Source of the DNA: Alphaproteobacteria bacterium
GTDB lineage: Bacteria > Pseudomonadota > Alphaproteobacteria > Thalassobaculales > Thalassobaculaceae
DNA length: 57,556 nt
Assembly (NCBI GenBank): GCA_024742605.1
Contig: JANSYC010000023.1
Location: 1 to 57,556, forward strand
Reading direction: 5' to 3'
Below, one piece after another: positions 4,538 to 33,258 of this stretch. The notes beneath the pieces are model-generated. The model did not search any database. It saw only the letters and a list, made by a program, of their open reading frames with translations, and was not told the origin of the DNA. Positions within the stretch are counted from its first letter, which is position 1; each line of letters begins with the position of its first letter. The position numbers were made by a program, and so were the translations under genes.

Positions 4538-4653
4538 TCCGAGGCTGAAGGGTGCTCTGCCCTGCCGCTGTCGTCAAGCTTGTAATGACCATAAGTGGAA
4601 TTGAGTGAAGATTTGCCTAAGGAAAAAACAATTATCGGAATGAATTCAACAGT

Positions 4654-4902
4654 TCATTTGATATCAAGTTGAGCGGTTGAACAGCGTCCGTCCCGGTCCA
4701 TCACGCCACGGAAGACCGTACGTTGATCGCTATCGGCAAAAGCCTTGGAGAAACGGATCATCTGATCGGACGTGCGAAGAAACACCCGATGTTTCTGGCA
4801 GACCTCCATCATGTCCTTCAGGAACGCCTTGGCCTCGTCTCGGGTCAGGAGATTCTTCTGGTGGTCCTTTGCGATATCGCCGAGCAGTTTCGGGTCGATC
4901 AT
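4654..4902 (-). CDS. Small hypothetical protein
   Basis: 82 residues from the ATG at 4902 (MIDPKLLGDIAKDHQKN), preceded by AGGA at a suitable distance. A GTG at 4932 would add ten residues. It is lysine-rich and predicted mainly helical (DEAKAFLKDMMEVCQKHRVF), with no membrane segment. It is divergent from the hypothetical gene at 4969, with 66 bp between. Not recognised. Confidence 0.45.
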   Translation of the reverse strand: MIDPKLLGDIAKDHQKNLLTRDEAKAFLKDMMEVCQKHRVFLRTSDQMIRFSKAFADSDQRTVFRGVMDRDGRCSTAQLDIK

Positions 4903-4968
4903 TGGGAACTGTCCTGCTGTCTGCCGTTTCACTGGTGTTGCCGAGGCAAGTCACGATACGCTTGCAGA

Positions 4969-5625
4969 ATGGCGAGGATAACACCTGAACATTACCTGAA
5001 GAAACCGGGCCGGATCCTAACCTGGCATGCTGGTGCGCACTGCCGATCCCACAAGACATCTCAGCGTGAAGACTATTTCACGGTCCTCCCAAAGGAGTTG
5101 GCGCCCTTTCTGCACATGATCGGCTCTGACACTACCGAAGGTGAGGTGCTGGAGTTCTTCATGAGCGAGATGCTGTACGAGCTTGCCCGGCTTGAAGCCG
5201 AGGCTGAGGAGATGTACCGGGGCGATCCGCTGATCCCGAAGATGCCGCCGGGTGCCGTTCTGTTCGAAATTCGCGGCTTCTTCCATCGCCACCTTGAGTT
5301 CTCCGTCACCCAGCACGTGATGCCGGTGACCGATCCGTTCCGGAAGGCGCCCGAGCCGAACTGGCTCATGCTGGCCAATCAGAATGTACGGAATCCGGAG
5401 AGATGCGGGACGGCGTTTGACGAGCTGTTGGATCGGTGCGACCGGGTTGCGCGGGCACACGATCTGGTGCTGGACCTGACGATGGCGCGCCACGGGTTTC
5501 GCACCATGCTTCGGCGGAAACTGGCGGACGGTGCCGTCTCCCCTACTCCGCTTTCCCTGCTGCCCGCAGATAGATTTGGCGATCCGTTTTATGCAGCGCG
5601 AAGCCCGGCCGTTCCGGCTCGATAA
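4969..5625 (+). CDS. Hypothetical protein
   Basis: 218 residues from an internal ATG at 4969. The longer open frame upstream is antisense to the small gene at 4654 and is not coding-like. The protein has an acidic helical middle (EVLEFFMSEMLYELARLEAE), a PPGAVLFEIRGFFHRHLEF segment, and an arginine-rich tail. No family recognised. Its last 83 bp overlap the convergent GNAT gene, so the final residues may be incidental read-through of that gene's antisense. Confidence 0.45.
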   Translation: MARITPEHYLKKPGRILTWHAGAHCRSHKTSQREDYFTVLPKELAPFLHMIGSDTTEGEVLEFFMSEMLYELARLEAEAEEMYRGDPLIPKMPPGAVLFEIRGFFHRHLEFSVTQHVMPVTDPFRKAPEPNWLMLANQNVRNPERCGTAFDELLDRCDRVARAHDLVLDLTMARHGFRTMLRRKLADGAVSPTPLSLLPADRFGDPFYAARSPAVPAR

Positions 5626-6037
5626 AGCCTCGGCGTTTGTACCAGTTCAGGGGCCGGGGGCCGCACATCAGCAGCCAGCGGCGCAGATTCTGAAGATCCG
5701 GGTGTCCCTCGACACAGTCCATCAGCCAGCCGCCGCGCGCCGCACCGCGATTGCCATCCAGCAGAAACACGTCGCCGATATAGGCGAAGGCGGCGAAATC
5801 GGTCACGACACGGGCGTACCCGACCATGCCCGTCACATCCGGCTCCCCAGGAAACACGCCGAAATTGACCGACCCCGCGATCATCCGGCGCACGGTCTCA
5901 AGCGGAATGCCCGGCGACTGGTCGCCGGCCGCCAGATACGCGCAGACCACCTCGGCCTCGATGTGCTCCCGGTCGGTGGTGATCACCCAGCCGTCCCGCT
6001 CCCATCGGCGCGGCGGGATATCATCCAGCCTGCTCAT
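5543..6037 (-). CDS. GNAT family N-acetyltransferase
   Basis: 164-residue acetyltransferase with FAYIGDVFLLDGNRGAARGG (strand 4 and acetyl-CoA loop, residues about 85-105), WLMDCVEGHPDLQNLRRWLL and a late NWYKRRGF motif typical of motif B in this family. It probably modifies a small molecule or protein amine; the substrate is unknown. Its ATG overlaps the TGA of the upstream MBL gene (ATGA), so translation is likely coupled. Last gene of the mltB-to-GNAT minus-strand run. Confidence 0.85.
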   Translation of the reverse strand: MSRLDDIPPRRWERDGWVITTDREHIEAEVVCAYLAAGDQSPGIPLETVRRMIAGSVNFGVFPGEPDVTGMVGYARVVTDFAAFAYIGDVFLLDGNRGAARGGWLMDCVEGHPDLQNLRRWLLMCGPRPLNWYKRRGFIEPERPGFALHKTDRQIYLRAAGKAE

Positions 6038-6816
6038 AGCGCCACCACCAGTCCGTCGTAGCCCGGCTCGACCCCATCGGGACAGCGCTCGAGGATGGTG
6101 CGGTAATCCATCTGGGTGTTCATATGGGTCATCACCGCCCGTCTTGGCTTCACCCGATCGATCCAGGCGAGCGTGGTATCCAAATCGGCATGCGCCGAGC
6201 TGGGATCGGGGCGCAGGCAGTCGACGACCCAGAGATCGAGACCGTAGCTTGCCAGCTGCTCGAGCTGGGCATCGTCGAAGCTGTGCACATCGGTCGAATA
6301 GGCGAACCGCTCGCCGAACACGAAGCCAAGACTTTCACCGGAACTGCCATGGCTTTGGAGCATGACGTCAACCGCCATGTCCGCGACCTCGATCCGTCCG
6401 TTGCGCGGAATTTCACGGGCCTCCAGCGGCGGCCTGAAATGCGGTGGGCTGTTCGCCGATTTTTCGAACATATAGGTGAACCGGCGGCGGAGATCCGCGA
6501 AGGTCGTCGCATCGGTCATCGTCGGTATCGGCGCGCCCATACGCCATTGAATAGGACGCAGGTCGTCGAGACCATGGGTGTGATCGGCGTGAAGATGGGT
6601 GATCAGCAACGCATCGATCCGCTCGACCTCGGCATCGACGAGTTGCTCCCGCAAGTCCGGGGACGCGTCGACCAGGATCACACGATCATTCTCTTCCACG
6701 AGGACCGAGCAGCGGCGGCGGCGGTTCCGGGGCTCGTTTGCGTCGCACGCGCCCCAGCCGGAATACAGGCTCGGCACTCCGATCGAGGACCCGCAACCGA
6801 GCATTGTGACCTTCAT
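6034..6816 (-). CDS. MBL-fold metallo-hydrolase, PhnP/cyclic phosphodiesterase-like
   Basis: The 260-residue product starts MKVTMLGCGSSIGVPS and carries the metallo-beta-lactamase metal motif HLHADHTHGLDD at about 77-88, later histidine and aspartate ligands in STDVHSFDDA, and MTHMN near the end. This subgroup is related to PhnP phosphodiesterases and is commonly found next to tatD in alphaproteobacteria; the natural substrate is not established. It overlaps tatD by ATGA at its start and the GNAT gene at its end, indicating one operon. Confidence 0.88.
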   Translation of the reverse strand: MKVTMLGCGSSIGVPSLYSGWGACDANEPRNRRRRCSVLVEENDRVILVDASPDLREQLVDAEVERIDALLITHLHADHTHGLDDLRPIQWRMGAPIPTMTDATTFADLRRRFTYMFEKSANSPPHFRPPLEAREIPRNGRIEVADMAVDVMLQSHGSSGESLGFVFGERFAYSTDVHSFDDAQLEQLASYGLDLWVVDCLRPDPSSAHADLDTTLAWIDRVKPRRAVMTHMNTQMDYRTILERCPDGVEPGYDGLVVAL

Positions 6817-7661
6817 GCGGTCTTCCGATCCACGTCCAGCGGGCCAAATCCTTCCGGCATCGGCACTTTGGAGAACAGATTGTGGAAGTTCCGGGTGGTT
6901 CGCTCCGCCGACTCCCGTTCGTCCCACCCCCTGGTCTCCGCCACGACACGGTGGGTATGCACGACATAGGACGGCTCGTTCCGCTTCCCGCGATGGGGTG
7001 GCGGCGCCAGGTAAGGAGCGTCGGTCTCGACCAGGATACGATCTTCGGGAACAGCGGCCGCGATCTCCCGCAGTTCGTCCGACTTCTTGAAGGTCACGAT
7101 CCCCGAGAACGAGACATAGTGCCCCAGCGCAATCGCCCGCATCGCCAGATCCCGGCCGGAGCTGAAACAATGAAGTACCGCCCGAAACGGTCCGTTCCGC
7201 CCGGTCTCGTCTTCCAGAATGCGGGCCATGTCCTCGTCCGCGTCCCGGGAATGAATGATGACCGGGAGATCCAGCCGTCGGGCCGCCTCGATATGGATGC
7301 GGAAACCGGCGGCCTGCGCCTCCGGAGAGCCGTGCGAGTAGAAATAGTCGAGGCCGCACTCCCCGATCCCGACGACCTTCGGGTGCGCGGCATAGGCGAC
7401 AAGCTGATCCGCCGTCACATCGGGCTCCTCATCGGCTTGATGCGGATGGGTGCCGACGGTGCAGAACACGTCGTCATAGGCCTCGGCGATCGGCAGGATG
7501 CGCGTCTCGAACTGGCGGACCCGGGTGCAGATCGTGACCATGCGTACCAGACCGGCCCGGCGGGCACGGGCCACGACTTCGTCCCGCTCCGGGCCGAAAT
7601 CGTCGAAATCCAGATGGCAGTGGCTGTCGACCAGCGGCGGCAGGCTCGTATCCGAAGTCAC
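6813..7661 (-). CDS. tatD: TatD family metal-dependent DNase
   Basis: 282-residue TIM-barrel hydrolase. Metal ligands are visible in DSHCHLDF (residues 12-19), GECGLDYFY, VIIHSRDADED, VLHCFSSG and VETDAPYLAPPP, all TatD signatures. TatD proteins are 3'-5' DNases used in DNA repair and quality control. I chose the GTG at 7661 because it overlaps the metG stop as GTGA, giving the expected N-terminus just before the first strand. Cotranscribed with metG upstream. Confidence 0.92.
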   Translation of the reverse strand: MTSDTSLPPLVDSHCHLDFDDFGPERDEVVARARRAGLVRMVTICTRVRQFETRILPIAEAYDDVFCTVGTHPHQADEEPDVTADQLVAYAAHPKVVGIGECGLDYFYSHGSPEAQAAGFRIHIEAARRLDLPVIIHSRDADEDMARILEDETGRNGPFRAVLHCFSSGRDLAMRAIALGHYVSFSGIVTFKKSDELREIAAAVPEDRILVETDAPYLAPPPHRGKRNEPSYVVHTHRVVAETRGWDERESAERTTRNFHNLFSKVPMPEGFGPLDVDRKTA

Positions 7662-9217
7662 TGGGACGCCCCCTCCTCCGCGACCCATCGCGGAAACGCC
7701 CCTTCCGGCTTCGGCAACGGCGTTCCGGGAGTCAGACGACACGCCGGGTTCAGCCGATCGAAGCCGCGCTCGTCCGGACCGAGGACCAACTGATCCAGCA
7801 GCTTCGCGGTCGTGTCCGGCATCACCGGCTGCAGCAGGATCACCGCATGGCGGATGGCCTCGGCCAGGGTGTAGAGCACGGTCTCCATCCGGGCCGGATC
7901 GGTCTTGCGCAACGCCCAGGGCGCCATCTCGTCCACATAGCGATTGGCGTCGCCGACGACCTCGAACACCGTCTCCAGCATCTTGTGAAAAGCCTGCACG
8001 TCGAGATGCGCACGGACCGCCGGAAGCATGGCGTGCGCCTTGTCCAGCAGGGCCTGGTCGGACGGCTCGAAGGCGCCCGGTGTGGGCACGGCGCCATCGC
8101 AGTTTTTCACCACCATCGACAACACGCGCTGGCACAAGTTGCCCAGATCGTTCGCCAGTTCGGAATTCATCCGGTTGATCATCGCCTGGTGGGAAAAATC
8201 ACCATCATTTCCGAACGGCACCTCGCGCAGCAGGAAATACCGGGTCTGATCCAATCCGTAGGTTTCGACCAGCGACACGGGATCGATCACATTGCCGAGC
8301 GATTTCGAAATCTTCTCGCCCTCGTTTGTCCACCAGCCGTGCGCGAATACCCGCTTCGGCGGTTCCAGATCAGCGGCCATCAGAAAGGCCGGCCAATAGA
8401 CAGCGTGAAACCGCAGGATGTCTTTTCCGACCATATGAAGATCGGCCGGCCAGAAGTCGGCGTAGTCGCCGTCCTGATTCGGATAGCCTGCGGCCGTGAT
8501 GTAATTGGTGAGTGCATCCAGCCAGACGTACATGATGTGGGCGTCGTCCCCCGGCACCGGAACGCCCCATTTGAAGCTTGTTCTGCTGATCGAGAGATCG
8601 CGCAGCCCGCCCTTCACGAAGCTGATCACCTCGTTGCGGCGGCTGTCCGGAAGGATGAAATTCGGGTTTTCCTCGTAGAACCTCAGCAGCGGTTCCTGCC
8701 ATTTCGACAGATCGAAGAAATAGCTCGGTTCCTTGACCCATTCGACCGGCGCGCCGGTCGGAGCGATCTTCTGGCCGTCCTTTTCGACCAGTTCCCCTTC
8801 ACCGTAGAACGCCTCGTCCCGCACGGAATACCAGCCGTCATAGGACTCGAGGTAGATATGGCCGCGCTCCTGCAGGCGAACCCAAAGGTCCTGAACCGCC
8901 CGCTTGTGCCGCTCCTCGGTGGTGCGGATGAAATCGTCATTGCTGAAATTCATGGTGGCGGCCAGGGTCCGGAACCGCTGGCTGACCTCGTCGGTGAAGC
9001 TTTGCGGATCGACACCGGCCGCTTCCGCCGCCTTCTCGACCTTCTGGCCATGCTCGTCCGTACCGGTCAGAAACTTTACCCGATAGCCGTCCAGCCGCTT
9101 GAACCGTGCCAGCACATCACACGCCAGGGTCGTGTAGGCGTGCCCGATATGCGGACTGTCGTTCACGTAGTAGATCGGCGTGGTGACGTAATAAGTTTTC
9201 TGATCTGGCGAGGACAT
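7658..9217 (-). CDS. metG: Methionyl-tRNA synthetase
   Basis: Charges tRNA-Met with methionine. The 519-residue class I synthetase has HIGH at residues 23-26 and the KMSKS loop in the form KISKSLGN near residue 305. It is the short form that lacks the C-terminal EMAP/Trbp-type tRNA-binding domain, as is usual in alphaproteobacteria. Starts at an ATG; 65 bp separate it from holB upstream. Ends in a GTGA overlap with tatD. Confidence 0.96.
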   Translation of the reverse strand: MSSPDQKTYYVTTPIYYVNDSPHIGHAYTTLACDVLARFKRLDGYRVKFLTGTDEHGQKVEKAAEAAGVDPQSFTDEVSQRFRTLAATMNFSNDDFIRTTEERHKRAVQDLWVRLQERGHIYLESYDGWYSVRDEAFYGEGELVEKDGQKIAPTGAPVEWVKEPSYFFDLSKWQEPLLRFYEENPNFILPDSRRNEVISFVKGGLRDLSISRTSFKWGVPVPGDDAHIMYVWLDALTNYITAAGYPNQDGDYADFWPADLHMVGKDILRFHAVYWPAFLMAADLEPPKRVFAHGWWTNEGEKISKSLGNVIDPVSLVETYGLDQTRYFLLREVPFGNDGDFSHQAMINRMNSELANDLGNLCQRVLSMVVKNCDGAVPTPGAFEPSDQALLDKAHAMLPAVRAHLDVQAFHKMLETVFEVVGDANRYVDEMAPWALRKTDPARMETVLYTLAEAIRHAVILLQPVMPDTTAKLLDQLVLGPDERGFDRLNPACRLTPGTPLPKPEGAFPRWVAEEGASQ

Positions 9218-15192: not shown

Positions 15193-15495
15193 GGATGGGT
15201 GGCCGAGCGGTTGAAGGCACCGGTCTTGAAAGTGCGCCATGTAAGGCGCGGCTGTATACGGAAAGGAATGAACTTTCTATCCCTGGGTAATAGGGATTAA
15301 AGCACCACGGTTAGGTCCAATCGAAAGAAAGGATTGAACATAGCATCCGTGGAGAAGCATCCTTGCGATGAATGAGATAGTCAAGAGAAGGGTGCAGCTA
15401 AGATACATATGGGTAAGCCTGATTGGCTGAACTTCAGTCTCGGTGGAAACACTTCGATCCTCTAGGGAAATCTCATGTAACCCTAGACCATTGTT

Positions 15496-15524
15496 AAGAA
15501 CTAGAGGTTTTCAAGCTAGTTCTT
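15496..15524 (+). other. Intron EBS1 hairpin
   Basis: A 9-bp stem (AAGAACTAG/CTAGTTCTT) presents an 11-nt loop. TTTCAAG at 15509-15515 is the exact complement of CTTGAAA, the last seven bases of exon 1 (15225-15231). This is the EBS1-IBS1 contact that defines the 5' splice site and the retrohoming target. A possible EBS2 is CGGTG at 15441-15445, complementary to CACCG at 15218-15222. Confidence 0.8.
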
Positions 15525-15708
15525 ATACCCAACGATGGACCAGCCTATAAGAAATAGGAAAAGACGTACAAAGGCCCTAAGTGTATCGTGGATACAGTCG
15601 CGAAAAACATGGGATCGCCTAAGGGAAGTAATTCCTATGGTGACGGAGTTGTCGTAGTAGTTGTTTGGACTATCTAACTTCACAGATAATCCATATGTGG
15701 TTGAGGTA

Positions 15709-17613
15709 ATGCTCAAAGAAAACGAAGGACAACAGGTATTCGGTCTGAAGACAGAAGAGGTCCACTCGGATGAGAACCAGGGCCTTCTACGACTTCAGAA
15801 ATTACGAGAACTGAACGCCGACTCGTCTTGGGAAAATAAGGACCTCTATCGCTTGATGTTTAGGGTCGACTTATACATCACGGCATACGAACGTCTGAAA
15901 TCTTCCCCTGGAAACATGACCAAAGGTTCTGACGGTGAAACTCTTGATGGCTTCTCCTTGGAGAAAATAGAAAAGATCATCGAAAGTATGAGGGATCAGA
16001 GTTTTCAATTTGTCCCGGCCAAAAGGATCTACATCCCAAAAGCCAACGGCAAAAAGAGACCCCTGGGAATACCCTCACCTAAGGACAAAATCGTCCAAGA
16101 AGTCATTCGTATGATACTAGAAAGTATCTATGACGGAAGCTCCAATGCCTCCAGCTTTTCGGACGCATCACATGGATTCAGAGCGGGACGAGGCACACAC
16201 AGTTGCCTAAATGAAGTACGGAAATGGCATTCGGTGAATTGGTACGTCGAAGGAGACATCCGTGGATGCTTCGACAACGTCAATCACCAAATGCTGATTG
16301 ATATCCTTTCAAAAAGGATCAAGGACAATCGTTTCCTAGATCTAATATGGAAGGCTCTCCGAGCAGGCTACATGGAAAAACGTACCTTCAAGAACTCTCT
16401 TATTGGTACACCTCAGGGAAGTGTAATCAGCCCGATTCTTACGAACATCTATCTGAACGAGTTCGACTCATGGGTTCAGGCGTTCAAGGAAATTTATGAA
16501 AGAGGTCAACGAAAACGGGTTAACCCCCAGTACACCAAAATCATAAAAGAGAGAAAACGTATCAAAACGGGCAAGAAGGAAGCATCGCTCGAAACCAGAC
16601 GCGATCTGGAAAAAGCTATGTTTAACACCCCTTCCCTTCTCCATAATGATCCCGACTATATTAGGATCCATTATATTCGCTATGCTGACGATTGGCTTGT
16701 CGCCATCGATGGACCCAAAGAGCTTGCTCAAAAGTTCAAAGATGAGGCCACCCTCTTCTTCAGCAACAATCTCCTAATGGAGCTCAGCGAAGAGAAGACC
16801 CACATCCGAAACGCCCGTACTGACAAAGCACTATTCCTTGGTACTGAAATTACCATTGGAAACGGAGCAGAACCAGTATACCGTAAGATGAAAATGCCTG
16901 GAACGAACACGGTGGCTCGCCGCCGAGTTCCAACAGACAATATCACTTACATGTACGCACCTGAGTCTATCATAAACAGGCTGCGCAGCGGCGACTTCAT
17001 CGACGGTAACAAAAATCCAATAGCAAAGAATGCTTGGATTGATAAAGCAGATTGGGAAATCGTAGGACGATATAACGATATCCTTCGTGGTTATCGGAAC
17101 TATTACTCCTTTATTGATAACCCACTTCGCCTAAAATTCTTGCAATATCTTCTACAATACTCATGTGGAAAGACCCTTTGCCGCAAACACCAAACCTCTT
17201 TGAGAAAACTGTTTGCGAAATATGGGCCTAACCTTAAAGTTCCGTGCAAATGGGACACCGAAGGCAAGCCGGTTAAATATATCTCCCTGGATCTTCAAAA
17301 ATCCTGGAATAAAAACCGGTTTGGGTTCAAATCCGGTCACGGTCCAACAGACCGTATGAAAGAGGGTATGAACCTTAGGACCAGAACAAAATTGGATGAA
17401 CCGTGCGTCATTTGTGGAAAACCTGACGGGGTGGAAATGCACCACGTCAAACACCTCCGCAAAGACAAAGCGAAAGGTTTTACCCACGTCCTTCAGCAAA
17501 TTAACCGCAAACAGATACCCGTTTGTAAATCATGTCATCTTGATATACACAACGGAAAACATGATGGTAAATCGCTCAGCGATCTATATCATCCTGGTAT
17601 TGCGGCGCGTTGA
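15709..17613 (+). CDS. ltrA: Group II intron reverse transcriptase/maturase with HNH endonuclease domain
   Basis: Promotes splicing and retrohoming of its host intron. 634 residues from the ATG at 15709 (GAGG just upstream); a TTG at 15661 in the same frame would add 16. RT domains run from about 60 to 400, with KRPLGIPSPKDKIVQE, HGFRAGRGTHSCL, YVEGDIRGCFDNVNH, TPQGSVISP and the catalytic YADD at about 325-328. A maturase (domain X) region follows. The C-terminus has a zinc-HNH endonuclease: CVICGK near 566, MHHVKH near 578, CKSCH near 606. The stop codon is immediately followed by the nested tRNA. Confidence 0.95.
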   Translation: MLKENEGQQVFGLKTEEVHSDENQGLLRLQKLRELNADSSWENKDLYRLMFRVDLYITAYERLKSSPGNMTKGSDGETLDGFSLEKIEKIIESMRDQSFQFVPAKRIYIPKANGKKRPLGIPSPKDKIVQEVIRMILESIYDGSSNASSFSDASHGFRAGRGTHSCLNEVRKWHSVNWYVEGDIRGCFDNVNHQMLIDILSKRIKDNRFLDLIWKALRAGYMEKRTFKNSLIGTPQGSVISPILTNIYLNEFDSWVQAFKEIYERGQRKRVNPQYTKIIKERKRIKTGKKEASLETRRDLEKAMFNTPSLLHNDPDYIRIHYIRYADDWLVAIDGPKELAQKFKDEATLFFSNNLLMELSEEKTHIRNARTDKALFLGTEITIGNGAEPVYRKMKMPGTNTVARRRVPTDNITYMYAPESIINRLRSGDFIDGNKNPIAKNAWIDKADWEIVGRYNDILRGYRNYYSFIDNPLRLKFLQYLLQYSCGKTLCRKHQTSLRKLFAKYGPNLKVPCKWDTEGKPVKYISLDLQKSWNKNRFGFKSGHGPTDRMKEGMNLRTRTKLDEPCVICGKPDGVEMHHVKHLRKDKAKGFTHVLQQINRKQIPVCKSCHLDIHNGKHDGKSLSDLYHPGIAAR

Positions 17614-17703
17614 GGAGCGGTGACCGAGAGGCTGAAGGTGGCGGTCTTGAAAACCGCTGAGCATGAAAATGTTCCGTGGGTTCGAATCCCACCCGCTCCG
17701 CCA
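17614..17703 (+). tRNA. tRNA-Ser(UGA), intact, nested inside the group II intron
   Basis: A 90-nt class II tRNA beginning on the base after the maturase stop codon. Acceptor GGAGCGG/CCGCTCC, anticodon stem GCGGT/ACCGC, loop CTTGAAA (anticodon TGA), variable-arm stem GAGCAT-GAAA-ATGTTC, T-loop GTTCGAA, discriminator G and encoded CCA. By hand alignment it shares 68 of 90 positions with the interrupted host tRNA, and stem changes are compensated (acceptor TG/CA to GC/GC), so it looks functional and not a recent copy. Confidence 0.93.
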
Positions 17704-17732
17704 CTCGTTGCAAGGGGTAATTGAATACTGGA

Positions 17733-17766
17733 GAGCCGTATGCAATGAAAGTTGCACGTACGGTTC
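17733..17766 (+). ncRNA. Group II intron domain V
   Basis: A 34-nt hairpin with lower stem GAGCCGTA/TACGGTTC, catalytic AGC triad at 17734-17736, two-base CG bulge, upper stem TGCAAT/GTTGCA and a GAAA tetraloop at 17747-17750. This matches bacterial domain V at every diagnostic feature. Confidence 0.93.
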
Positions 17767-17819
17767 GGAGGGGGGCGATTGGTTATCCATCTAACGATGG
17801 ACCCGGTCGCCTACCCTAC
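17767..17819 (+). ncRNA. Group II intron domain VI and 3' splice site
   Basis: A GC-rich stem (GGG..GGCGA paired with TCGCC..CCC) leaves A17813 unpaired, seven bases from the intron end counting both ends. That is the usual place of the branch-point adenosine. The intron ends CTAC at 17819 and exon 2 begins with A17820. Confidence 0.8.
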
Positions 17820-17856
17820 ACCGGCAGGGGTGAGAGCCTCTCGTGGGTTCGAATCC

Positions 17857-17870
17857 CACCCCATCCGCCA
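17857..17870. repeat. attL, 3' end of tRNA-Ser
   Basis: CACCCCATCCGCCA, the last 14 bases of the tRNA-Ser gene, repeated exactly at 22767-22780. Integration here leaves the tRNA intact. Confidence 0.85.
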
Positions 17871-17969
17871 TTCATAGAATTTAAGTTATTGAAATATTTA
17901 GAAAGTTTTTAAACTCCACGTCTTGCGTACCACGCTGCATCCCACAGTTCGCATTTGCCGGATGATTGG

Positions 17970-18665
17970 TCAGCAGAAATGCGGATCTGTGGTGCACGGG
18001 ACGGAGGTACGTGTATTTCGACTTTCAGGTTTATTAACGCTCTTAATGAGCCCGTCATTCTTCAGTTTTGTAATTGTCGATGCGGCAGTGCTGTGCGCGA
18101 AACCGTCAGCATCTGCAAATGCATTCCCTCGTGCATCTGCGCTTGCTGTCCATAAAATCGCTCCCGACCGGGCATCATGAAGATTGATGTCATATGAAAA
18201 CCTCGGCTTTTTAATAGTATACCCACCGGTGGTGTATCCAGGTGTAGTGTTTGTTGTGATGTACCCTGTATTTCCGTAGACATTGACCGTGCTGTACGAC
18301 GTTCCAGGAGTGTAGGTTTGCGGTACGTACTGCGAATCTAAAGATTTTTGATATCCAGAAAAGACTATCGTCTGGTCAATTTCTGAATCCATGAGGGTTT
18401 GCGCAATTTGTTCTTTGCTCATTTTTTGGGTGGGTGGGATTATGTCCACCCCCCTCACCGCTTCGATACCTTCTGCGTCCAAAAGCTCAACGAATTTGCT
18501 TTCAACTGGGATCCGCTCAGCTAGAGGCATAGACCCAGCGAACACCATGGTTTTTCCAAGCTGAAAAGTCGGTGGTATTTGTGGATCCGTGTAGCTTGTG
18601 AGATTGGTTCGAACGCACGCTGTGACGAGTAAAACCAGCGCAAAACTAGAAAGTATCTTGACCAT
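17970..18665 (-). CDS. Island-borne lipoprotein, DUF4136-like
   Basis: 231 residues with a lipoprotein signal (ALVLLVTAC, Cys at about 17). The body follows the DUF4136-like pattern: TSYTDPQIPP near the mature N-terminus, a FVELLDAEGIEA segment, DIIPPTQKMSKEQ, a Thr/Tyr/Gly-rich middle, and a closing KPRFSYDINLHDARSGAILW with an IxxLKNDGLI helix. Probably outer-membrane anchored; function unknown. More AT-rich than chromosomal neighbours. The ATG at 18665 has GGAGAT upstream. It is the leftmost gene of the island, where cargo genes usually sit. Confidence 0.75.
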   Translation of the reverse strand: MVKILSSFALVLLVTACVRTNLTSYTDPQIPPTFQLGKTMVFAGSMPLAERIPVESKFVELLDAEGIEAVRGVDIIPPTQKMSKEQIAQTLMDSEIDQTIVFSGYQKSLDSQYVPQTYTPGTSYSTVNVYGNTGYITTNTTPGYTTGGYTIKKPRFSYDINLHDARSGAILWTASADARGNAFADADGFAHSTAASTITKLKNDGLIKSVNKPESRNTRTSVPCTTDPHFC

Positions 18666-18751
18666 TTTTATCTCCACACAATCGCGTCTGTATGATGCTT
18701 GCAGCAAATTGTCGCTACCATACGGGGTTTAGCTTGAGAGGATATAGTTAC

Positions 18752-19021
18752 TTAAGATATTGACGGTTTATTCGAGTCTCGTCGAATTCTCCGAAGCAAG
18801 CGCTTTATGGCCGGTCCGTTGCTATATGCTCCGTGCCGGTAGTTACCGTTTGATGGGCCATTTAGTGCGCCAGAGCCGTATGCGCCTCCGTGCATTCGGC
18901 ATCGAGTCTTTCCTCGAACCGCTGGTCCCTGACACCTCGTGTTATGTCGGGTGCGCGCTCCACAGCGCGGCGCTGCGTTCATTTGCTCCAGGCGCATGGG
19001 GTTGATGCTCGATTTTTCCAT
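18752..19021 (-). CDS. Small phage/island protein with Cys-His-Gly motif
   Basis: 89 residues: a CGARTRHNTRCQGPAVRGK stretch followed by CRMHGGAYGSG and an Asn/Gly-rich repeat (NGPSNGNYRHGAYSNG). This C-x-A-x-T-x(5)-C...C-x-x-HGG pattern recurs in small proteins next to terminase-like genes in phages and islands; it may bind zinc or nucleic acid. Its ATG overlaps the stop of the upstream gene by one base (TGATG), so the two are coupled. Confidence 0.75.
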   Translation of the reverse strand: MEKSSINPMRLEQMNAAPRCGARTRHNTRCQGPAVRGKTRCRMHGGAYGSGALNGPSNGNYRHGAYSNGPAIKRLLRRIRRDSNKPSIS

Positions 19022-19521
19022 CACCCCCCTCCCTTCGTCACGTTGCCAACAATCGCCTGCCCGCCGTCGCCGACATAGACGCGCTCGACCCGGACCGTTT
19101 GATCCGCCTTCTGCCGGTGGCGTTTAAGTGCCTCCATTTGCTGCGCGTAGGTTTTGGAGAGCTTGTCCGCGAAGCGCAGATTGGACTCGCGCCCGATGTG
19201 GGGTTGGTCCGGTATCATGGCGCGCCGGTAACACTCCATCGCAGCACTGTGGCAGGCGACCATCTGAGCGGCCAACATGCCCTCGACCTCATCACGCGGC
19301 TTAATGCCCTGTAACGTCGCCAGGGCCGCCTGACGTTTCGACAACTTGGTGTCATCATCGAACACGTCGGGTATCCAGAGAGACTTCAGTGTTTGGTCAG
19401 CGATGTTCTGATTGAAGTTGTCTGAGCGCGAACCGCCGAATGCTGCGTACTCGGGCACCTGAGATTCCAGAGGGTGCATTTTTACCACCCCCGTTCTGGC
19501 GACTGCTTTGCTCTTGCTCAT
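19021..19521 (-). CDS. Conserved genomic-island protein, function unknown
   Basis: 166 residues from the ATG at 19521 (MSKSKAVART). The conserved core EGMLAAQMVACHSAAMECYRR, then RESNLRFADKLSKTYAQQME and the end GGQAIVGNVTKGG, is a pattern I know from small proteins of alphaproteobacterial islands and prophages, often next to replication or packaging genes; it has no demonstrated role. Coupled by TGATG to the HGG-motif protein downstream. A longer frame starting at 19563 is less likely. Confidence 0.75.
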   Translation of the reverse strand: MSKSKAVARTGVVKMHPLESQVPEYAAFGGSRSDNFNQNIADQTLKSLWIPDVFDDDTKLSKRQAALATLQGIKPRDEVEGMLAAQMVACHSAAMECYRRAMIPDQPHIGRESNLRFADKLSKTYAQQMEALKRHRQKADQTVRVERVYVGDGGQAIVGNVTKGGG

Positions 19522-19595
19522 TCCGAGGCCTCCATACTGGTAGATTATAAGTGCGCCCCACATGACACCGTTCAGAGTTCTGAAAGCGTCGTTAT

Positions 19596-19687
19596 GGTGT
19601 CACCACGGGTGCCGTTAAGCCCTTTTCCGCGCTCTCAAAGTCGGGAACGGTGTCACCACGGGTGCCATTGGTGTCACCTCGGGTGCC
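19596..19687. repeat. Three 18-bp direct repeats at the end of the Rep-like gene
   Basis: GGTGTCACCACGGGTGCC occurs at 19596-19613 and 19649-19666, and with one change (T for A at position 10) at 19670-19687. Each unit contains the dyad GGTG-T-CACC. The right two are inside the 3' end of the gene at 19615-20079 (encoding APxVTP), the left one is just past its stop. Possible iterons or operators. Confidence 0.6.
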
Positions 19688-20079
19688 GTCGATTGAATTT
19701 TGAAGTCCCGATAGGTCGCTTTTGCTGGCCGTCTGTCGCAGGGTTCCGCTGTCAGTTCCCATTCGGTCGCTCGTGCGGATCTGCCTCCGCCCTTCCAATC
19801 GAATGAGGCTTTGGCCCTGGCAACGATGAAGCCCCGGTCTATCAATTCGTCAAACGCTCGCCGGACCCTGCTGCTGCCTATTCGAAGCTGCTCTCGGGCC
19901 TCACGGTGGCTAAACGGTATCGCGCCGTTGTTCATGCCGTTGTGACGCGTCCATATCTCGATCAGGAGCGCCCGGCCCTCGCAGGATAGGGAGCGCCATG
20001 CGGCGCTCCCCGTAATCCCGCGATGCAATTTGACGAAGGGTGTCGTTTTCGACCGTCCGTCTGCTCGCATCTTGCCCAT
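19615..20079 (-). CDS. Winged-helix, replication-initiator-like protein
   Basis: 154 residues. After FVKLHRGITGSAAWRSLSCEGR comes a clear helix-turn-helix segment, FSHREAREQLRIGSSRVRRAFDELIDRGFI, resembling the winged-helix parts of plasmid and island Rep-like proteins. The short C-terminal tail holds the repeated APEVTPMAPVVTP written by the 18-bp DNA repeats. Its ATG overlaps the previous gene's TGA (TGATG). Whether it starts island replication is inference. Confidence 0.65.
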   Translation of the reverse strand: MGKMRADGRSKTTPFVKLHRGITGSAAWRSLSCEGRALLIEIWTRHNGMNNGAIPFSHREAREQLRIGSSRVRRAFDELIDRGFIVARAKASFDWKGGGRSARATEWELTAEPCDRRPAKATYRDFKIQSTAPEVTPMAPVVTPFPTLRARKRA

Positions 20080-20378
20080 CAGGCCGCCTCCGCGTCCGGT
20101 AGCAACCGAACCTTGGAACGCAGCACATAACGAGCGTGAGTGCCCGCGTATGGGCCTCCGTGCGCCTCGTGGAGGGTTTCGATGCTCAGACCATGTTCAT
20201 GTCGCAGAGCATGGACATACGCGCTCCAACGCGGCCCTGGCGTGTCTATCGGCGTGCAACCATCAGCACCAGCACTGACGAGGTTCTGAAGCGCCCATGC
20301 GTCTCGTCCGGTGGTGATGCCGGTGCGTGTCACATCACCTTCAGTAACGAGGAAATGCTGAACGAGCTTATCGGCCAT
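20079..20378 (-). CDS. HTH_39-like winged-helix protein
   Basis: 99 residues from the ATG at 20378 (MADKLVQHFL), with GGGGAGG upstream. The core TGRDAWALQNLVSAGADGCT, PIDTPGPRWSAYVHALRHEH and EAHGGPYAGTHARYVLRSKV matches the small HTH_39-type winged-helix family that is frequent in alphaproteobacterial prophages and islands. Probably a regulator of the island. Starts within the last 11 bases of the 58-residue gene and is coupled to the Rep-like gene. Confidence 0.75.
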   Translation of the reverse strand: MADKLVQHFLVTEGDVTRTGITTGRDAWALQNLVSAGADGCTPIDTPGPRWSAYVHALRHEHGLSIETLHEAHGGPYAGTHARYVLRSKVRLLPDAEAA

Positions 20379-20544
20379 GACGCACCTCCCCGCCCTGTCC
20401 CATGATTTGCTCGACGTAGATCCGGGCAACGGTTGGGCGAAGGCCATGCTTCTGGTTCAGGTGACGCTCCTGCCAGCATGAAGGTAAGGGCGCTGGCCGG
20501 GAACGTGGTGAGTAGAAGTCGAACTCGAATTGATGTAGTTTCAT
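20368..20544 (-). CDS. Small island protein, 58 residues
   Basis: The ATG at 20544 is preceded by a perfect AGGAG at 8 bp. The product starts MKLHQFEFDFYSPRSRPAPL and contains CWQERHLNQKHGLRPTVARI, a helix that could lie in a small DNA-binding fold. It is similar in layout to short proteins between AlpA and winged-helix genes in other islands. Overlaps the next gene by 11 bp. Function unknown. Confidence 0.6.
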   Translation of the reverse strand: MKLHQFEFDFYSPRSRPAPLPSCWQERHLNQKHGLRPTVARIYVEQIMGQGGEVRHGR

Positions 20545-20618
20545 GAGAGAACTCCTGATGAACGGGGTTTGTCGAAAGCCGTCCCGGTGTCCAAACCGAT
20601 GGGGCGGCTTTCGCGTTT

Positions 20619-20813
20619 TCAGGCCGCAAGGCCTCGTTCCTGGCAAGCAAGGCTTTCCAGGTATTCGGATGGTTGGGTTGTGATGATACGTCGCCGCCCT
20701 GCGGTAACTGACTTGAGCGTTCCGTCAGCGATGAGGGCGAAAGTCTTGGTCCGTCCGAGCGAGGTGGCGCTGCACCAATCCTCGACCGACCAACCGCATT
20801 TCTGAGCATTCAT
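20619..20813 (-). CDS. AlpA/excisionase-like DNA-binding protein
   Basis: 64 residues from the ATG at 20813, with GGAGA upstream. The pattern WSVEDWCSATSLGRTKTFAL, IADGTLKSVTAGRRRIITT and PSEYLESL is that of short MerR/Xis-type winged helices (AlpA family), which regulate integrase expression or serve as excisionase. It heads the leftward regulatory operon (58-residue protein, wHTH, Rep-like). The gap at 20814-20904 probably holds its promoter. Confidence 0.75.
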   Translation of the reverse strand: MNAQKCGWSVEDWCSATSLGRTKTFALIADGTLKSVTAGRRRIITTQPSEYLESLACQERGLAA

Positions 20814-20904
20814 GCTCGTCTCCTGAGTTACGGCGCACCCCAACGGCGCGTCATGAACCCAAAAGTACTTGGCTCGCATACTGTGCTAGAATACCGACGC
20901 TAAT

Positions 20905-21396
20905 TCATTGTATTTGTTTAAAATCATTGTCCAAGTGAATGATTCTTTCCGTCTCGGTCGCTATCGTTACCCAACCATCGCCCGACGTTTTCCGAACAAG
21001 CAGAAATATCTCTCCGTTGTCGTCTTGGAATACTTGGAGCGCTCCCTCCCAAGCTCGATGAAACCGACTCCTCAATGCTGATGGAGAAGTTCCAATATCC
21101 GAAAAGGGCGGTACGTGGACAAGTTCGCGACAAGCGTAACTTACTGAATAACCTTTATTTTTAAACTCATTAACCCTCTTTATTAAAATCCAGGTGAGTT
21201 CAAAAGTCCATTTTGGCTTCGCACCCGATTGTCCCTTCAAACGAGGCGCTCCAGAAGCCAGTCGCATATTGGGTTTAATAATGTCTCGAATCTGACCAGC
21301 CGTACTGAACCCAGCTGCTTCCAGGAGACGGATCAGTGTTTCTTGGCTCTTAGAGGCAAGCTTCCATTCCTCAATGGACTTGGGACGACTTGGCAT
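20905..21396 (-). CDS. Hypothetical island protein
   Basis: 163 residues, starting 7 bp after the integrase stop and on the same strand, so probably cotranscribed with it. The N-terminal part (ETLIRLLEAAGFSTAGQIRD) may be a helix-turn-helix; the middle has KPKWTFELTWILIKRVNEF, and the C-terminus a three-strand VTIATETERIIHLDN segment. More AT-rich than the flanking chromosome. I do not recognise the family. Confidence 0.6.
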   Translation of the reverse strand: MPSRPKSIEEWKLASKSQETLIRLLEAAGFSTAGQIRDIIKPNMRLASGAPRLKGQSGAKPKWTFELTWILIKRVNEFKNKGYSVSYACRELVHVPPFSDIGTSPSALRSRFHRAWEGALQVFQDDNGEIFLLVRKTSGDGWVTIATETERIIHLDNDFKQIQ

Positions 21397-21403
21397 ATTG
21401 ACC

Positions 21404-22603
21404 CTATTGGCTCGCTGAAGCCTTCAACAGGACAACTTTTTTTCCAGGGTCGTTCCTGCAAAAATTGTCCCAAGCGTTCATCAAATCTACGCGCTTTGCC
21501 AGCAGGTCCGAGCGCGCATAAGCCTGCTCGACCTTGGTGCCGACACGGTGCGCGAGGGCCATTTCAGCGACCTCACGCGGTACGCTCGTGGCCTCCGACG
21601 CCCAATCCCGGAAGCTCGACCTGAACCCGTGCGCCGTCACCGCAAAGCCCATACGCCGCAGCAACATGGTCAAGGTCATATCGGACATGGGCTTTCCGGC
21701 CCGTGCGCCCTCAAATACTAGGTCCTGCCCGTCTCGACGCGCCGCTGCCATCTCGTTCAGAATCTCAAGTGCGCGGTCGGACAATGGCACAACGTGGGGC
21801 TTAGCTGCTTTCATGCGTTCGGCAGGAATGGTCCAAAGGCGCTTTTCCAGATCTATCTCCTGCCATCGCGCGCCGCGCATCTCGCCTGATCGAACCGCTG
21901 TCAGAACAAGAAACTCAAACGCGAGCTTCACCACGTCCGATGCCTTGGGTGTACTCCGCAACTTCTCAACAAAGGCCGGGACCTCAGGCCAAGGCATCGC
22001 TGCCAAGTGCTCCTTAACTTTGGGCTGCTTTGGCAGACCGCGCGATATGCTCCGGGTTGGCGTTTCGGTGGCACGAAAGCCCTTTGCATGCGCCCAATCC
22101 AGAACGGTGCCGATCCGCTGGCGAACCCTTCGCGCCGTCTCGGGAATAGTCAGCCATATCTCTGCCAACACGTCGCGCACCATCGGCCCGTCAATCTCAC
22201 TGACCCGAACCGCCCCAAGTTTCGGAAATGCGTGATGCTCCAACGTGGAAAGCCATTGCGCCCCGTGTTTGGCGTTTTTCCATGTCGGCAGATGTTCCTT
22301 GTAGACCAGAAGGCTGGCCTCTTTGAATGTCGGGACTTGAGTGCGGGCTTTTTTGCGTTCGGCCACCGGATCTACGCCGCTACGAATCTGCTTCCGCATC
22401 TCGTCAGCCGCTTCTCTGGCGTCCGCCAATGACACGTCTGCCACCGGACCTAGCCCAATGTCTCGACGGCGCCCGTCGCGCTGCACACGCAGGACCCACT
22501 TCCGGGACCCGTCCTTGCCGATGACGAGCATGAGGCCCCGTCCATCCGTGTACCGTCCCGGCTGCGCTAAATTCTTAACCTTGAGTGCCGTCAAGCTGCT
22601 CAT
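21404..22603 (-). CDS. int: P4-type tyrosine integrase
   Basis: Site-specific recombinase of 399 residues. An N-terminal arm-binding DUF4102-like part (LTALKVKNLAQPGRYTDGRG) is followed by a SAM-like core-binding region and the catalytic domain. Catalytic residues are Arg in TAVRSGEMRG, His and Arg in AHGFRSSFRDWASE, His in ALAHRVG and Tyr in VEQAYARSD. It lies beside the right att repeat, as expected for an integrase that uses a tRNA 3' end. I chose the ATG at 22603 over a GTG 33 bp upstream. Confidence 0.95.
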   Translation of the reverse strand: MSSLTALKVKNLAQPGRYTDGRGLMLVIGKDGSRKWVLRVQRDGRRRDIGLGPVADVSLADAREAADEMRKQIRSGVDPVAERKKARTQVPTFKEASLLVYKEHLPTWKNAKHGAQWLSTLEHHAFPKLGAVRVSEIDGPMVRDVLAEIWLTIPETARRVRQRIGTVLDWAHAKGFRATETPTRSISRGLPKQPKVKEHLAAMPWPEVPAFVEKLRSTPKASDVVKLAFEFLVLTAVRSGEMRGARWQEIDLEKRLWTIPAERMKAAKPHVVPLSDRALEILNEMAAARRDGQDLVFEGARAGKPMSDMTLTMLLRRMGFAVTAHGFRSSFRDWASEATSVPREVAEMALAHRVGTKVEQAYARSDLLAKRVDLMNAWDNFCRNDPGKKVVLLKASASQ

Positions 22604-22766
22604 ATCGCCACCATCGTCCCACAGTGCGTCCCACACTGTTTGGAGATTGGTAGCGAACGCCAGCGGTTCAAGGTGAATATGATGTCAGAGGAAATTTATT
22701 TAGATCAGTAATTTATGTGGACGTTGACGGATTACAGCGGACAATCTAAAAGCATTCTTATACGGA

Positions 22767-25964: not shown

Positions 25965-26918
25965 TCAGACCGCAGAGAAATTCCGGATCATCGACAGGAT
26001 CGCTGGCCCCATCAGAACCACGAACAGGGCCGGCAGGATGAACATCACCAGTGGGATGGTCATCAGAGCCGGGAGGCGACCCGCCTTCTCTTCCGCCCGC
26101 ATCATGCGCTGGGACCGAAGCTCCGACGCCAGGACCCGGAGCGCCTGCGCCAGGGGTGTGCCGAACCGTTCGGTCTGCGCGAGCGTGGTCGACAGTGCTT
26201 GGATGGCCGGCAATTCAACCCTCAGCGCCAGATTGTCGAGGGCCTGGCGCCGCTCCGACAGGTACCGCAGCTCAAGTGCCGTGGTGCGCATCTCATCGGA
26301 AAGTTCCGGCGCGCTCGCCTGCATCTCATCGGAAATCCGGTCGACCGCCGCATCGAGGCTGGACCCGGCCTCCACGCAGATCACCATCAGATCGAAGCAG
26401 TCGGGTAACGAGAGTTCGATCGCCTTGCGTCGCTTCGAGGCCGCGTTCCGGACCACGATATCCGGGAGAAAGCTGACAAACAGAACGGCCCCGATCACGA
26501 TCAAGAGCTTGACCATGGTCGGCATGGTTCCGATTTCCGCCACGAAGAACAGGACCGCCAGAAGCAACCCGATCCCGGCCGGCAGTGTCAGTTTCGCGAA
26601 CAGATAGACCGCGATCGCGTCCCGGGTGCGCCAGCCGGCTTGAGACATGGCCTGGACCACCTGCCCCATCTGCTTGGTCTTGATCAGATCGAACGAGCCG
26701 AGCACGCGACGGAGGGTTGCGGCGAAGCGTCGGCCCAAAGACTGGTTGATCTGAGCGGGTCCCAGATTGCGTCGACCTCCCAGAGCGGCGGCCCGCAGCC
26801 GGGCCTTCGGTGTTTCCGGAGGGGTCAGGAGGAGGTCGATCGCCAGAACCCCCGCGAATGCCAGAAGCGACGCTGCGATCAGGAACAGGCTGCCGGGATC
26901 GGCCAGAAACGGACTCAT
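25965..26918 (-). CDS. tadC: Type II/IVc secretion F-family protein TadC
   Basis: 317 residues. Inner-membrane platform protein of the tad pilus: hydrophobic helices near the N-terminus and around 105-150, a T2SSF domain from about 155 (PDCFDLMVICVEAGSSLDAA, then QALSTTLAQTERFGTPLAQAL), and a C-terminal pair of membrane segments (IPLVMFILPALFVVLMGPAI). Partner of TadB, 9 bp upstream in the same operon. Confidence 0.93.
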   Translation of the reverse strand: MSPFLADPGSLFLIAASLLAFAGVLAIDLLLTPPETPKARLRAAALGGRRNLGPAQINQSLGRRFAATLRRVLGSFDLIKTKQMGQVVQAMSQAGWRTRDAIAVYLFAKLTLPAGIGLLLAVLFFVAEIGTMPTMVKLLIVIGAVLFVSFLPDIVVRNAASKRRKAIELSLPDCFDLMVICVEAGSSLDAAVDRISDEMQASAPELSDEMRTTALELRYLSERRQALDNLALRVELPAIQALSTTLAQTERFGTPLAQALRVLASELRSQRMMRAEEKAGRLPALMTIPLVMFILPALFVVLMGPAILSMIRNFSAV

Positions 26919-26927
26919 GACACCCTC

Positions 26928-27923
26928 CTAGATCTTGAACCGGGTCATTTTGGTCATGACGAGGACGCCGAGCATCTGGCTTGCGATTCCGCAGAACAGC
27001 AGCATCCGGCCGGTCGGGTCGTACAGCAGCCCTCCCAGATAATCGGGGTTCATGAAGAACATGATCACCATGACGATGAAGGGCAGCGAGCCGAGGATCC
27101 AGGCGCTTGCTCGCGCCTCGCTCGACATGGCACGGACCTTCAGTTTCATGTGCTGGCGTTGACGCAGAAGGTCCGCCAGGTTCTGCAGGGTTTCGGCGAT
27201 ATTGCCGCCGGTCTCGTGCTGCACCGACAGGCTCACCGCAAAGAACCGCATGTCGGGCAAACCGATCCGTTCGGCCGCGTCCCCGAGGGCCTCTTCCAGA
27301 CTCTGTCCCAGTCGCAGACGCTCCACCACCACCCGGAACTCTCCGCCGATCGGATCAGGCAGTTCGTCGGCGATCAGGCCGATGGCTTCCGCCACCGGAT
27401 AGCCGGAGCGCACCCCGCGAATGATCAGATCGATGGCCTGTGGAAACTGCCGCATGAAGCGCGTCTCCCGGCGACCAGTCAGAATCCCAAGCGCCAAGCG
27501 CGGAACAAACACGGCGGCGGCCAGACCGGCGCCCACCGCTACCGGCAGCATCAGAAGAATGCTGTAGGTGAGCAGTCCGGCCAGGCTTCCGATGGCAAGG
27601 CTCATCAAAACATACGCAAGCGGCGCAACTGCGGAGAGGCCGGCGCGATTCAGACGTTTCTGAACATCGCCGGTCAGCCGACCGCCCTTTTGCTTGCGGC
27701 GCTTGCGGGTGCGGAAGATCTCCTCTTGCGGATGCCGCCCGGCCCCCGCACTACCGCGCAGCCGCCGCAACCGACGACGGAACGCCTCCCTGTGGTCCGC
27801 CCCGATGCCGGTCACCAGTGCGGCCAAAGCACAAAAGAACAGCGCCGCCCCCAGAAACACCAGGATCGTCAGCGTCAGATGCGGGGTGCCGCTTGCCAGG
27901 GTTTCGGGTGTCATCCATTGCAT
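26928..27923 (-). CDS. tadB: Type II/IVc secretion F-family protein TadB
   Basis: 331 residues, paralogous to TadC. N-terminal membrane segment (LTLTILVFLGAALFFCALAA), Arg-rich cytoplasmic linker, two central membrane helices, T2SSF domain (FPQAIDLIIRGVRSGYPVAE, SVQHETGGNIAETLQNLADL) and C-terminal helices. It forms the inner-membrane platform on which the ATPase CpaF works. Its start overlaps the cpaF stop by 13 bp; an ATG at residue 4 is equally possible. Confidence 0.93.
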   Translation of the reverse strand: MQWMTPETLASGTPHLTLTILVFLGAALFFCALAALVTGIGADHREAFRRRLRRLRGSAGAGRHPQEEIFRTRKRRKQKGGRLTGDVQKRLNRAGLSAVAPLAYVLMSLAIGSLAGLLTYSILLMLPVAVGAGLAAAVFVPRLALGILTGRRETRFMRQFPQAIDLIIRGVRSGYPVAEAIGLIADELPDPIGGEFRVVVERLRLGQSLEEALGDAAERIGLPDMRFFAVSLSVQHETGGNIAETLQNLADLLRQRQHMKLKVRAMSSEARASAWILGSLPFIVMVIMFFMNPDYLGGLLYDPTGRMLLFCGIASQMLGVLVMTKMTRFKI

Positions 27924-29704: not shown

Positions 29705-29707
29705 GAC

Positions 29708-30976: not shown

Positions 30977-31728
30977 GGCAGCGTCCCCGAACCCGAGGCG
31001 GAGGGAACATTTCCTGCAGCGGTACCGGACGGCTCAGCCGCACCAGCGGCCGGCGCCACCACCGCACCGACGGCCCCGGACCCGCTATAGGTTTTTATCG
31101 CGGCAACATCCTTTTGAGCGGATATCACGCCCGCTTCACCCGAGAGACGGGAACCACCTCCCCGACCCGTCACGAGATCATACGGATCGTCGATCATGAC
31201 CGCGAGATTGGCCTTGTCGCTACAGCCATGGTTCGAGGATGCAAGGTTTTTTGAGCCCGCAGCAGACGGATGCGTCCAATCCGGACAGTTCGGTCCCTGG
31301 GCGATGAAGCGGCCGACCGTGACCCGCACGCTATCGACCCCAAGGGGATTCACAACCGCCCGGCGGATCGGCGGAATGACCTTCGGATTGTAACCGAGCG
31401 ACCTCAGATGATCGGCCACCGCCCGCACCCGTTCCGCCTCGAAACCGAGCGGGTCCTGGGCGCCGGAGCCCGCCACCTGCAGCCGGTCCGTCTCCTTCAC
31501 GTCGCGTTCGACCAGAAAGCGCGTCAAGCGACTGAGATCTCCCTCGATCGGCTCGATTGCACGGTCGAGAAACCGCACATAAGCACGATCGACCTGCCAT
31601 TCGGTCTTGATGTCCCGCTTCTGCTCGACAATCCGCCAATCGTCGGTCGGCAGCGTGCAGGCGCCGAGAAAGCCAAATCCGAGGCCAGCGGCCAGGAAAA
31701 CGCAAACGGGGTTCAGGATCGTCGTCAT
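30973..31728 (-). CDS. cpaD: Tad pilus lipoprotein CpaD
   Basis: 251 residues from the ATG at 31728, which has AAGGA 8 bp upstream; a GTG at 31743 overlapping the cpaC stop is an alternative. Lipobox LGAC (FGFLGACTLP). The CpaD family core includes ETDRLQVAGSG, RAVADHLRSLGYNPKV, VRVTVGRFIAQGPNCPDWT and NHGCSDKANLAVMIDDPYDL. Outer-membrane lipoprotein that helps the CpaC secretin. The Ala/Gly-rich tail after residue 205 is low complexity. Confidence 0.9.
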   Translation of the reverse strand: MTTILNPVCVFLAAGLGFGFLGACTLPTDDWRIVEQKRDIKTEWQVDRAYVRFLDRAIEPIEGDLSRLTRFLVERDVKETDRLQVAGSGAQDPLGFEAERVRAVADHLRSLGYNPKVIPPIRRAVVNPLGVDSVRVTVGRFIAQGPNCPDWTHPSAAGSKNLASSNHGCSDKANLAVMIDDPYDLVTGRGGGSRLSGEAGVISAQKDVAAIKTYSGSGAVGAVVAPAAGAAEPSGTAAGNVPSASGSGTLP

Positions 31729-31739
31729 TGCTGTTTCCT

Positions 31740-33227: not shown

Positions 33228-33258
33228 TGTCCATCTCCCTGTCCCAGGCGACCGCGGA

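Follow-up and report, generated by a model that had tools for sequence, protein, structure and literature searches.

The stretch of DNA analysed here, referred to as the window, comprises positions 1 to 57,556 (57,556 nucleotides in full) of contig JANSYC010000023.1 (assembly GCA_024742605.1) from an alphaproteobacterium of the family Thalassobaculaceae, in which a tRNA-Ser(UGA) gene is split by a group II intron that itself carries a second, intact tRNA-Ser(UGA). The parts of the locus are listed in Table 1. When the two exons are joined, ARAGORN folds them into a 90-nt tRNA-Ser(UGA) with a perfect cloverleaf in which every stem is paired, and the exon boundaries given in the initial annotation, made from the sequence alone, are exact. 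That annotation had also recognized a canonical intron 5′ end, domains V and VI, and a maturase, and had proposed a check against the group II domain V model; these features are borne out by the GTGCG start, by the match to Rfam model RF00029 (71.4 bits), and by the RVT_1 and Intron_maturas2 domains of the intron open reading frame (ORF), which further shows a weak HNH match. The length of this ORF (650 amino acids) is counted from a TTG codon, and the true start may be a downstream ATG. The inner tRNA, hereafter called the cargo, is recovered by both ARAGORN and RF00005 as a full tRNA-Ser with the same anticodon; its first base directly follows the stop codon of the ORF, and it is identical to the joined outer tRNA at 68 of 90 positions (76%), as had been claimed. 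Uninterrupted orthologues of the outer tRNA are present in relatives of the same family, with an identity of up to 98%.

Table 1. Features of the split tRNA-Ser(UGA) gene and its intron in the window
Feature	Position	Strand	Support
Exon 1, 5′ half of host tRNA-Ser(UGA), up to anticodon-loop position 38	15193..15231	+	ARAGORN on joined exons
Group II intron, 2588 nt, 5′ end GTGCG, 3′ end CTAC	15232..17819	+	
EBS1 (exon-binding site 1) TTTCAA in the loop of a perfect hairpin, complement of anticodon loop UUGAAA	15509..15514	+	
Intron-encoded protein, LtrA-like reverse transcriptase/maturase/HNH endonuclease	15661..17613	+	Pfam, NCBIfam
Cargo (inner) tRNA, intact tRNA-Ser(UGA) with encoded CCA, in domain IV	17614..17703	+	ARAGORN; RF00005, 56 bits
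Domains V and VI	17731..17819	+	Rfam RF00029, 71.4 bits, E=4e-12
Exon 2, 3′ half of host tRNA-Ser(UGA), from position 39	17820..17870	+	ARAGORN on joined exons

The pairing of intron and tRNA recurs beyond the window. A search pattern that is blind to the cargo (the 5′ end of the intron directly after a tRNA anticodon arm) was run on a collection of 85,000 species genomes and revealed at least five further introns at the same position of tRNA-Ser(UGA), namely in Bradyrhizobium macuxiense, Brucella pecoris, a Rhizobium metagenome-assembled genome (MAG), a Marivita MAG, and Roseomonas KE2513. All five possess domains V and VI, their exons join to a tRNA-Ser(UGA), an intact tRNA-Ser(UGA) lies inside each intron, and their reverse transcriptases (RTs) are 48–61% identical to that of the window. 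Among the matches listed, the cargo is thus found in six of six Ser introns from six unrelated hosts, and introns in tRNA-Ser(UGA) that lack an inner tRNA, which the initial annotation would have read as a sign that the cargo is incidental, number none of the six. The insertion is rare, as only one of 397 sampled genomes from the order to which the Brucella carrier belongs contains it, which is the carrier itself; a looser tRNA-intron pattern with one mismatch, applied to 397 Rhizobiales genomes, matched mostly ordinary tRNA-Ser(GGA), the only exact match being the known carrier. Scans of genome and viral contig collections with peptide patterns for close RT relatives found none.

The compensatory changes noted in the initial annotation have a counterpart among the inner Ser tRNAs. 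In the five distinct inner Ser tRNAs all 26 base pairs are kept (100% paired), 14 of them through two-sided changes, and none of 500 shuffles performed as well. Since the arrangement recurs in independent genomes and the cloverleaf of the inner tRNA covaries, chance can be excluded as the origin of the split tRNA with its inner counterpart; an assembly artefact is ruled out by the occurrence in independent genomes, including complete plasmids. The most direct comparison is offered by the Brucella and Rhizobium introns (L210 and L211; individual loci are denoted by L numbers where they need to be told apart), whose cargo tRNAs are identical at 90 of 90 positions, whereas the ORFs are 73%, the ribozyme cores 81%, and the hosts’ own tRNAs 89% identical. 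Because the cargo remained unchanged while all these parts diverged, it is evidently under selection; it moves along with the intron, of which it is the most constrained part.

As follows from the genetic code, the tRNAs Ser-UGA, Leu-UAA, and Leu-UAG are the usual sole readers of the codons UCA, UUA, and CUA, all three of which are rare in the host genes near the window. According to the initial annotation, a second, uninterrupted tRNA-Ser(UGA) in the genome would have made a rescue needless. A whole-genome tRNA search of the window’s genome (rated 100% complete, in 187 contigs) found 43 tRNAs, the serine set consisting of GCU, GGA, CGA, and the inner UGA, and a tRNA-Ser(UGA) pattern matched the inner copy only, although another copy may lie in an assembly gap because the assembly is fragmented and some expected tRNAs (e.g., Ala-UGC and Arg-UCU) are missing from the list. 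In each of the other five carrier genomes, likewise, no uninterrupted tRNA-Ser(UGA) was found besides the inner copy. The tRNA-Ser(UGA) insertions in the six carrier genomes therefore appear to lie in an essential, sole-copy gene, the essentiality following from the genetic code. With respect to the two sequence-based findings that would have spoken against the initial annotation, a further uninterrupted gene and Ser introns devoid of cargo, the outcome thus favours its interpretation.

The self-complementing arrangement suggested for tRNA-Ser in the initial annotation turned out to be wider than this one tRNA. Reached via the closest plasmid relatives, an intron on a plasmid of P. silesiensis (L199) splits tRNA-Leu(UAG) and carries an inner tRNA-Leu(UAG), and one on a plasmid of Pseudomonas FeN3W (L200) splits tRNA-Leu(UAA) and carries tRNA-Leu(UAA). 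Family members were found in three of 388 sampled Pseudomonadaceae genomes, comprising another intron in tRNA-Leu(UAA) whose cargo is tRNA-Leu(UAA) (L291), an intron in a tRNA with CAU anticodon with CAU cargo (L290), and the FeN3W strain. Finally, an intron copy on a Microvirga plasmid (L244) has a CAU tRNA as its cargo; at its end stands the 3′ half of a tRNA, and the 5′ part is lost. The anticodon of the cargo thus matches that of the split tRNA in all 11 distinct tRNA-resident introns, in ten of them directly and in L244 as judged from the 3′ half, the 5′ part being absent. It was also observed that another complete group II intron, which encodes an RT of its own, interrupts domain V of the L244 intron (5057–7700) and makes it a twintron.

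Relatives that reside outside tRNA genes lack a tRNA cargo, both within the RT clade (L198, L251, and L268) and outside of it (L245–L250 and L252–L254). In the RT tree, all carriers fall into one clade of 14 rows (support 100/99) together with the non-carriers L198, L251, and L268. On a Cupriavidus plasmid, the sister intron L198 (1972–4434) interrupts a hairpin RNA immediately upstream of an ORF (4569–5996) that reads like IscB, the hairpin RNA possibly being its omegaRNA, and L268 (2845–3060) is inserted in an apparent RT gene of another intron. That tRNAs were caught by chance from tRNA arrays and have no function is a notion to which we give next to no credence. The L199 intron does lie among many tRNAs, in an array on a plasmid, but a random capture would account neither for the agreement of anticodons in 11 of 11 distinct introns from different hosts, nor for a cargo that stayed 100% conserved in L210 and L211 as the remaining intron sequence diverged, nor for the cargo-free state of the relatives outside tRNA genes; chance capture was rejected on the recurrence and the anticodon match.

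The cargo lies 3′ of the ORF in seven introns and 5′ of it in four. Because these two layouts do not sort into two clades, the cargo has been placed more than once. The layout also bears on the idea that the embedded tRNA is mainly regulatory or structural, in that the processing of its ends would cut domain IV or limit RT translation and thereby control mobility, with decoding being secondary. In most Ser introns the tRNA begins at, or a few bases from, the stop codon of the RT, and in L244 it overlaps the end of the ORF, as would suit such a role, but in the four introns with the opposite order it precedes the ORF. Moreover, a processing signal needs no matching anticodon, yet all 11 match, and the cargo changes along with the target, from Ser to Leu to CAU. 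We therefore deem this explanation unlikely as the main role, while tRNA processing may exert a regulatory influence as a by-product.

A further proposal is that the cargo aids the translation of the intron’s own protein, in the manner of phage-borne tRNAs. The RT ORFs are indeed less GC-rich than their hosts (45% versus ~60% around the window), but the codon read by the cargo is not overrepresented in the RTs, as the Leu(UAA) introns contain one and four UUA codons, and CUA and AUA codons are no less numerous in the Ser introns than in the Leu(UAG) and CAU introns. The codon counts led us to reject this proposal, which we regard as very improbable.

The window element is assigned to the group II introns by its 5′ GTGCG, domains V and VI, an ORF for RT and maturase, and the pairing of EBS1 with the intron-binding site IBS1, which is TTGAAA in exon 1. 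For the intron-encoded protein family the best match in the PDB is LtrA, over the full length (E=3e-142), and an AI2M-like HNH is present in eight of nine members; an LtrA-like RT with C-terminal HNH places the family, by protein criteria, in the ML/LtrA class. In all fully readable cases, the insertion lies between tRNA positions 38 and 39. EBS1 is situated in one homologous hairpin and is complementary to the targeted anticodon loop for all four targets, with one G-U change in L209: the EBS1/IBS1 pairs are TTTCAA/TTGAAA for Ser, TTTTAA/TTAAAA for Leu-UAA, ACCTAA/TTAGGT for Leu-UAG, and TTATGA/TCATAA for CAU. As judged from these pairs, EBS1 covaries with the anticodon loop.

A candidate EBS2 (exon-binding site 2) hexamer forms 3–6 base pairs with IBS2, the pairing not being convincing in every intron. 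The IBS2 region of the cargo differs from that of the target at two to four of six bases in all eight cases compared, and the motif NNNGGT, present in the IBS2 region of 30 of 30 natural targets, is missing from most inner Ser tRNAs. These differences hint that the cargo tRNA may be resistant to its own intron, which is put forward as a suggestion only because IBS1 is the same in the cargo and the target, EBS2 could not be fixed, and the CAU intron L290 does not fit the IBS2 pattern.

By its intact cloverleaf, its matching anticodon, and the purifying selection described above, the cargo appears to be an intact copy of the function that the intron disrupts. Its donor was not identified: the best listed phage and plasmid matches reach 80–84%, apart from one partial phage match at 90–95%, and one plasmid match to the inner tRNA is an ordinary tRNA adjoining an integrase. 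Indirect evidence for mobility comes from the chromosome of Pseudomonas FeN3W, where an intron 99.96% identical to the plasmid copy (L292, 1858–4422) lies in a different tRNA-Leu(UAA) gene. Since nearly identical introns occupy two different tRNA-Leu(UAA) genes, the element has probably moved recently in this strain. In L292, the 3′ half of the host tRNA-Leu(UAA) is gone and the RT carries a frameshift, with the cargo tRNA being intact.

This state would be expected if the cargo were a replacement and not a backup, that is, if the split tRNA were a decaying pseudogene that is no longer usefully spliced and the cargo were now the host’s gene, so that a retroelement would have brought about a one-way gene swap. 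The finding that the cargo, and not the ribozyme, is the best-conserved part between L210 and L211 also agrees with it. On the other hand, the host exons fold perfectly in every other full copy, as expected if they are still used, and the exons in the window are 98% identical to uninterrupted relatives, which a recent insertion would explain too. We consider such a replacement possible, at distinctly less than even chances; a gene replacement with a dead outer tRNA is in any case a variant of the home-and-rescue idea.

It is this home-and-rescue idea that we favour. In our view, the family quite probably represents mobile group II introns specialized for the 38/39 site of tRNA genes that carry a tRNA of the same anticodon, and thus a natural home-and-rescue element. 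This view draws on the anatomy, the anticodon match, the covariation of guide and target, the selection on one cargo, the lack of a further uninterrupted copy among the tRNAs found in six genomes, and the recent movement indicated in one strain, all read from sequence. With somewhat less assurance, we lean toward the fuller proposition that the family homes into single-reader tRNA genes, carries a target-matched replacement tRNA that resists the intron, and makes its hosts dependent, with the EBS1 guide and the cargo switching together.

The proposed course of events is as follows. The intron would home between positions 38 and 39, guided by the pairing of EBS1 with the anticodon loop. Insertion into a tRNA that is usually the sole reader of its codon (Ser-UGA, Leu-UAA, Leu-UAG, or a CAU tRNA) would harm the host even with partial splicing, which would be the reason why the intron carries a complete, diverged tRNA of the same anticodon in domain IV. 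Ordinary tRNA-processing enzymes would cut the cargo out of the intron or precursor RNA, and the released tRNA would most likely keep the codon readable whatever the splicing efficiency. As the cargo would supply an essential tRNA, the host would tolerate the intron and could become dependent on it. Domain IV is the place where split group II introns tolerate a break, and excision of the cargo hence need not abolish splicing. For Ll.LtrB, it was reported that the intron reduces the expression of its host gene via targeting of the spliced product (PMC6003770). The spliced outer tRNA could likewise be targeted; a differing IBS2 region would spare the inner copy. Splicing, cargo expression, rescue, and host dependence are steps that we infer.

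Several points weigh against this account. Rescue may be needless where hosts keep other copies, and the Leu introns on plasmids could coexist with chromosomal genes; no second intact tRNA-Leu(UAA) was found in FeN3W in the 2.4 of 5.0 Mb of the chromosome searched. The exons are intact in all full copies but one, and the split tRNA may be spliced well enough without help. Excision of the cargo would sever the intron RNA within domain IV, possibly to the detriment of mobility. Furthermore, two cargo tRNA-Ser genes (L212, 4841–4930, and L213, 2769–2858) have U73 instead of the usual G73. These two tRNAs are 80% alike and closer to each other than to the tRNAs of their hosts.

Elsewhere in the window, a tyrosine integrase (21404–22636, minus strand) and small genes follow just downstream of exon 2 (17871–22636). 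They look like a small island in the 3′ end of the tRNA, and no second attachment (att) copy was found for it within the window. The genes at 25965–34428 look like those of a tad/flp pilus assembly cluster (TadB, TadC, CpaF, CpaE, CpaC, and CpaB). Partial copies of tRNA-Ser(UGA) covering positions 1–43 occur in two family relatives that have the full copy on the same contig (G005:C106 2632–2674 and G026:C1 3893015–3893057), and are possible integration scars ending in the anticodon arm.

The arrangement shares traits with several known systems. Genomic islands and prophages also integrate in tRNA genes, whose function is restored by sequence of the element; they differ in using a tyrosine integrase and rebuilding the 3′ end, with no separate complete tRNA in a self-splicing intron. 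Group I introns in bacterial tRNA genes (e.g., in tRNA-fMet of Synechocystis, with its endonuclease) are based on another ribozyme and on DNA-based mobility, and no rescue tRNA has been reported for them. We know of no spare host-tRNA copy inside the plastid trnK intron. That intron, like those described here, is a group II intron in an essential tRNA with a maturase within it, but it is long-resident, its maturase (matK) lacks RT motifs, and a spare host tRNA inside it is not mentioned in PMC4424553. Introns of the Ll.LtrB type (ML/IIA-like, with the protein LtrA) have in common an RT-maturase-HNH protein in domain IV, the GTGCG 5′ end, domain V, and targeting through EBS1–IBS1, whereas Ll.LtrB itself sits in a relaxase gene and has no RNA cargo. 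The engineered HomeR and Cleave-and-Rescue drives likewise home into an essential gene with a diverged working copy aboard (PMC7968924). Those drives are man-made, CRISPR-based, and used in insects, in contrast to the natural, RNA-based, and bacterial tRNA introns, for which a homing-resistant cargo is no more than a suggestion. Searches of openly available papers, with few subscription papers and no preprints among them, found no description of group II introns in bacterial tRNAs or with tRNA cargo.

Bacterial group II introns have been described as residing mostly outside of housekeeping genes (PMC4424553, PMC6003770) and are thought to be kept from essential genes since they impair expression (PMC6003770). 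The tRNA-intron family would represent a way round this exclusion, in which an essential tRNA is broken and its replacement is brought along, and it would parallel, in nature, the home-and-rescue gene drives that have been engineered. That guide and cargo switch in step raises the question of how a retroelement gains a new cargo together with a new target. The family may further serve as a test case for selfish elements that become indispensable, and it is a possible early step toward introns that are fixed in tRNA genes, as in plastids.

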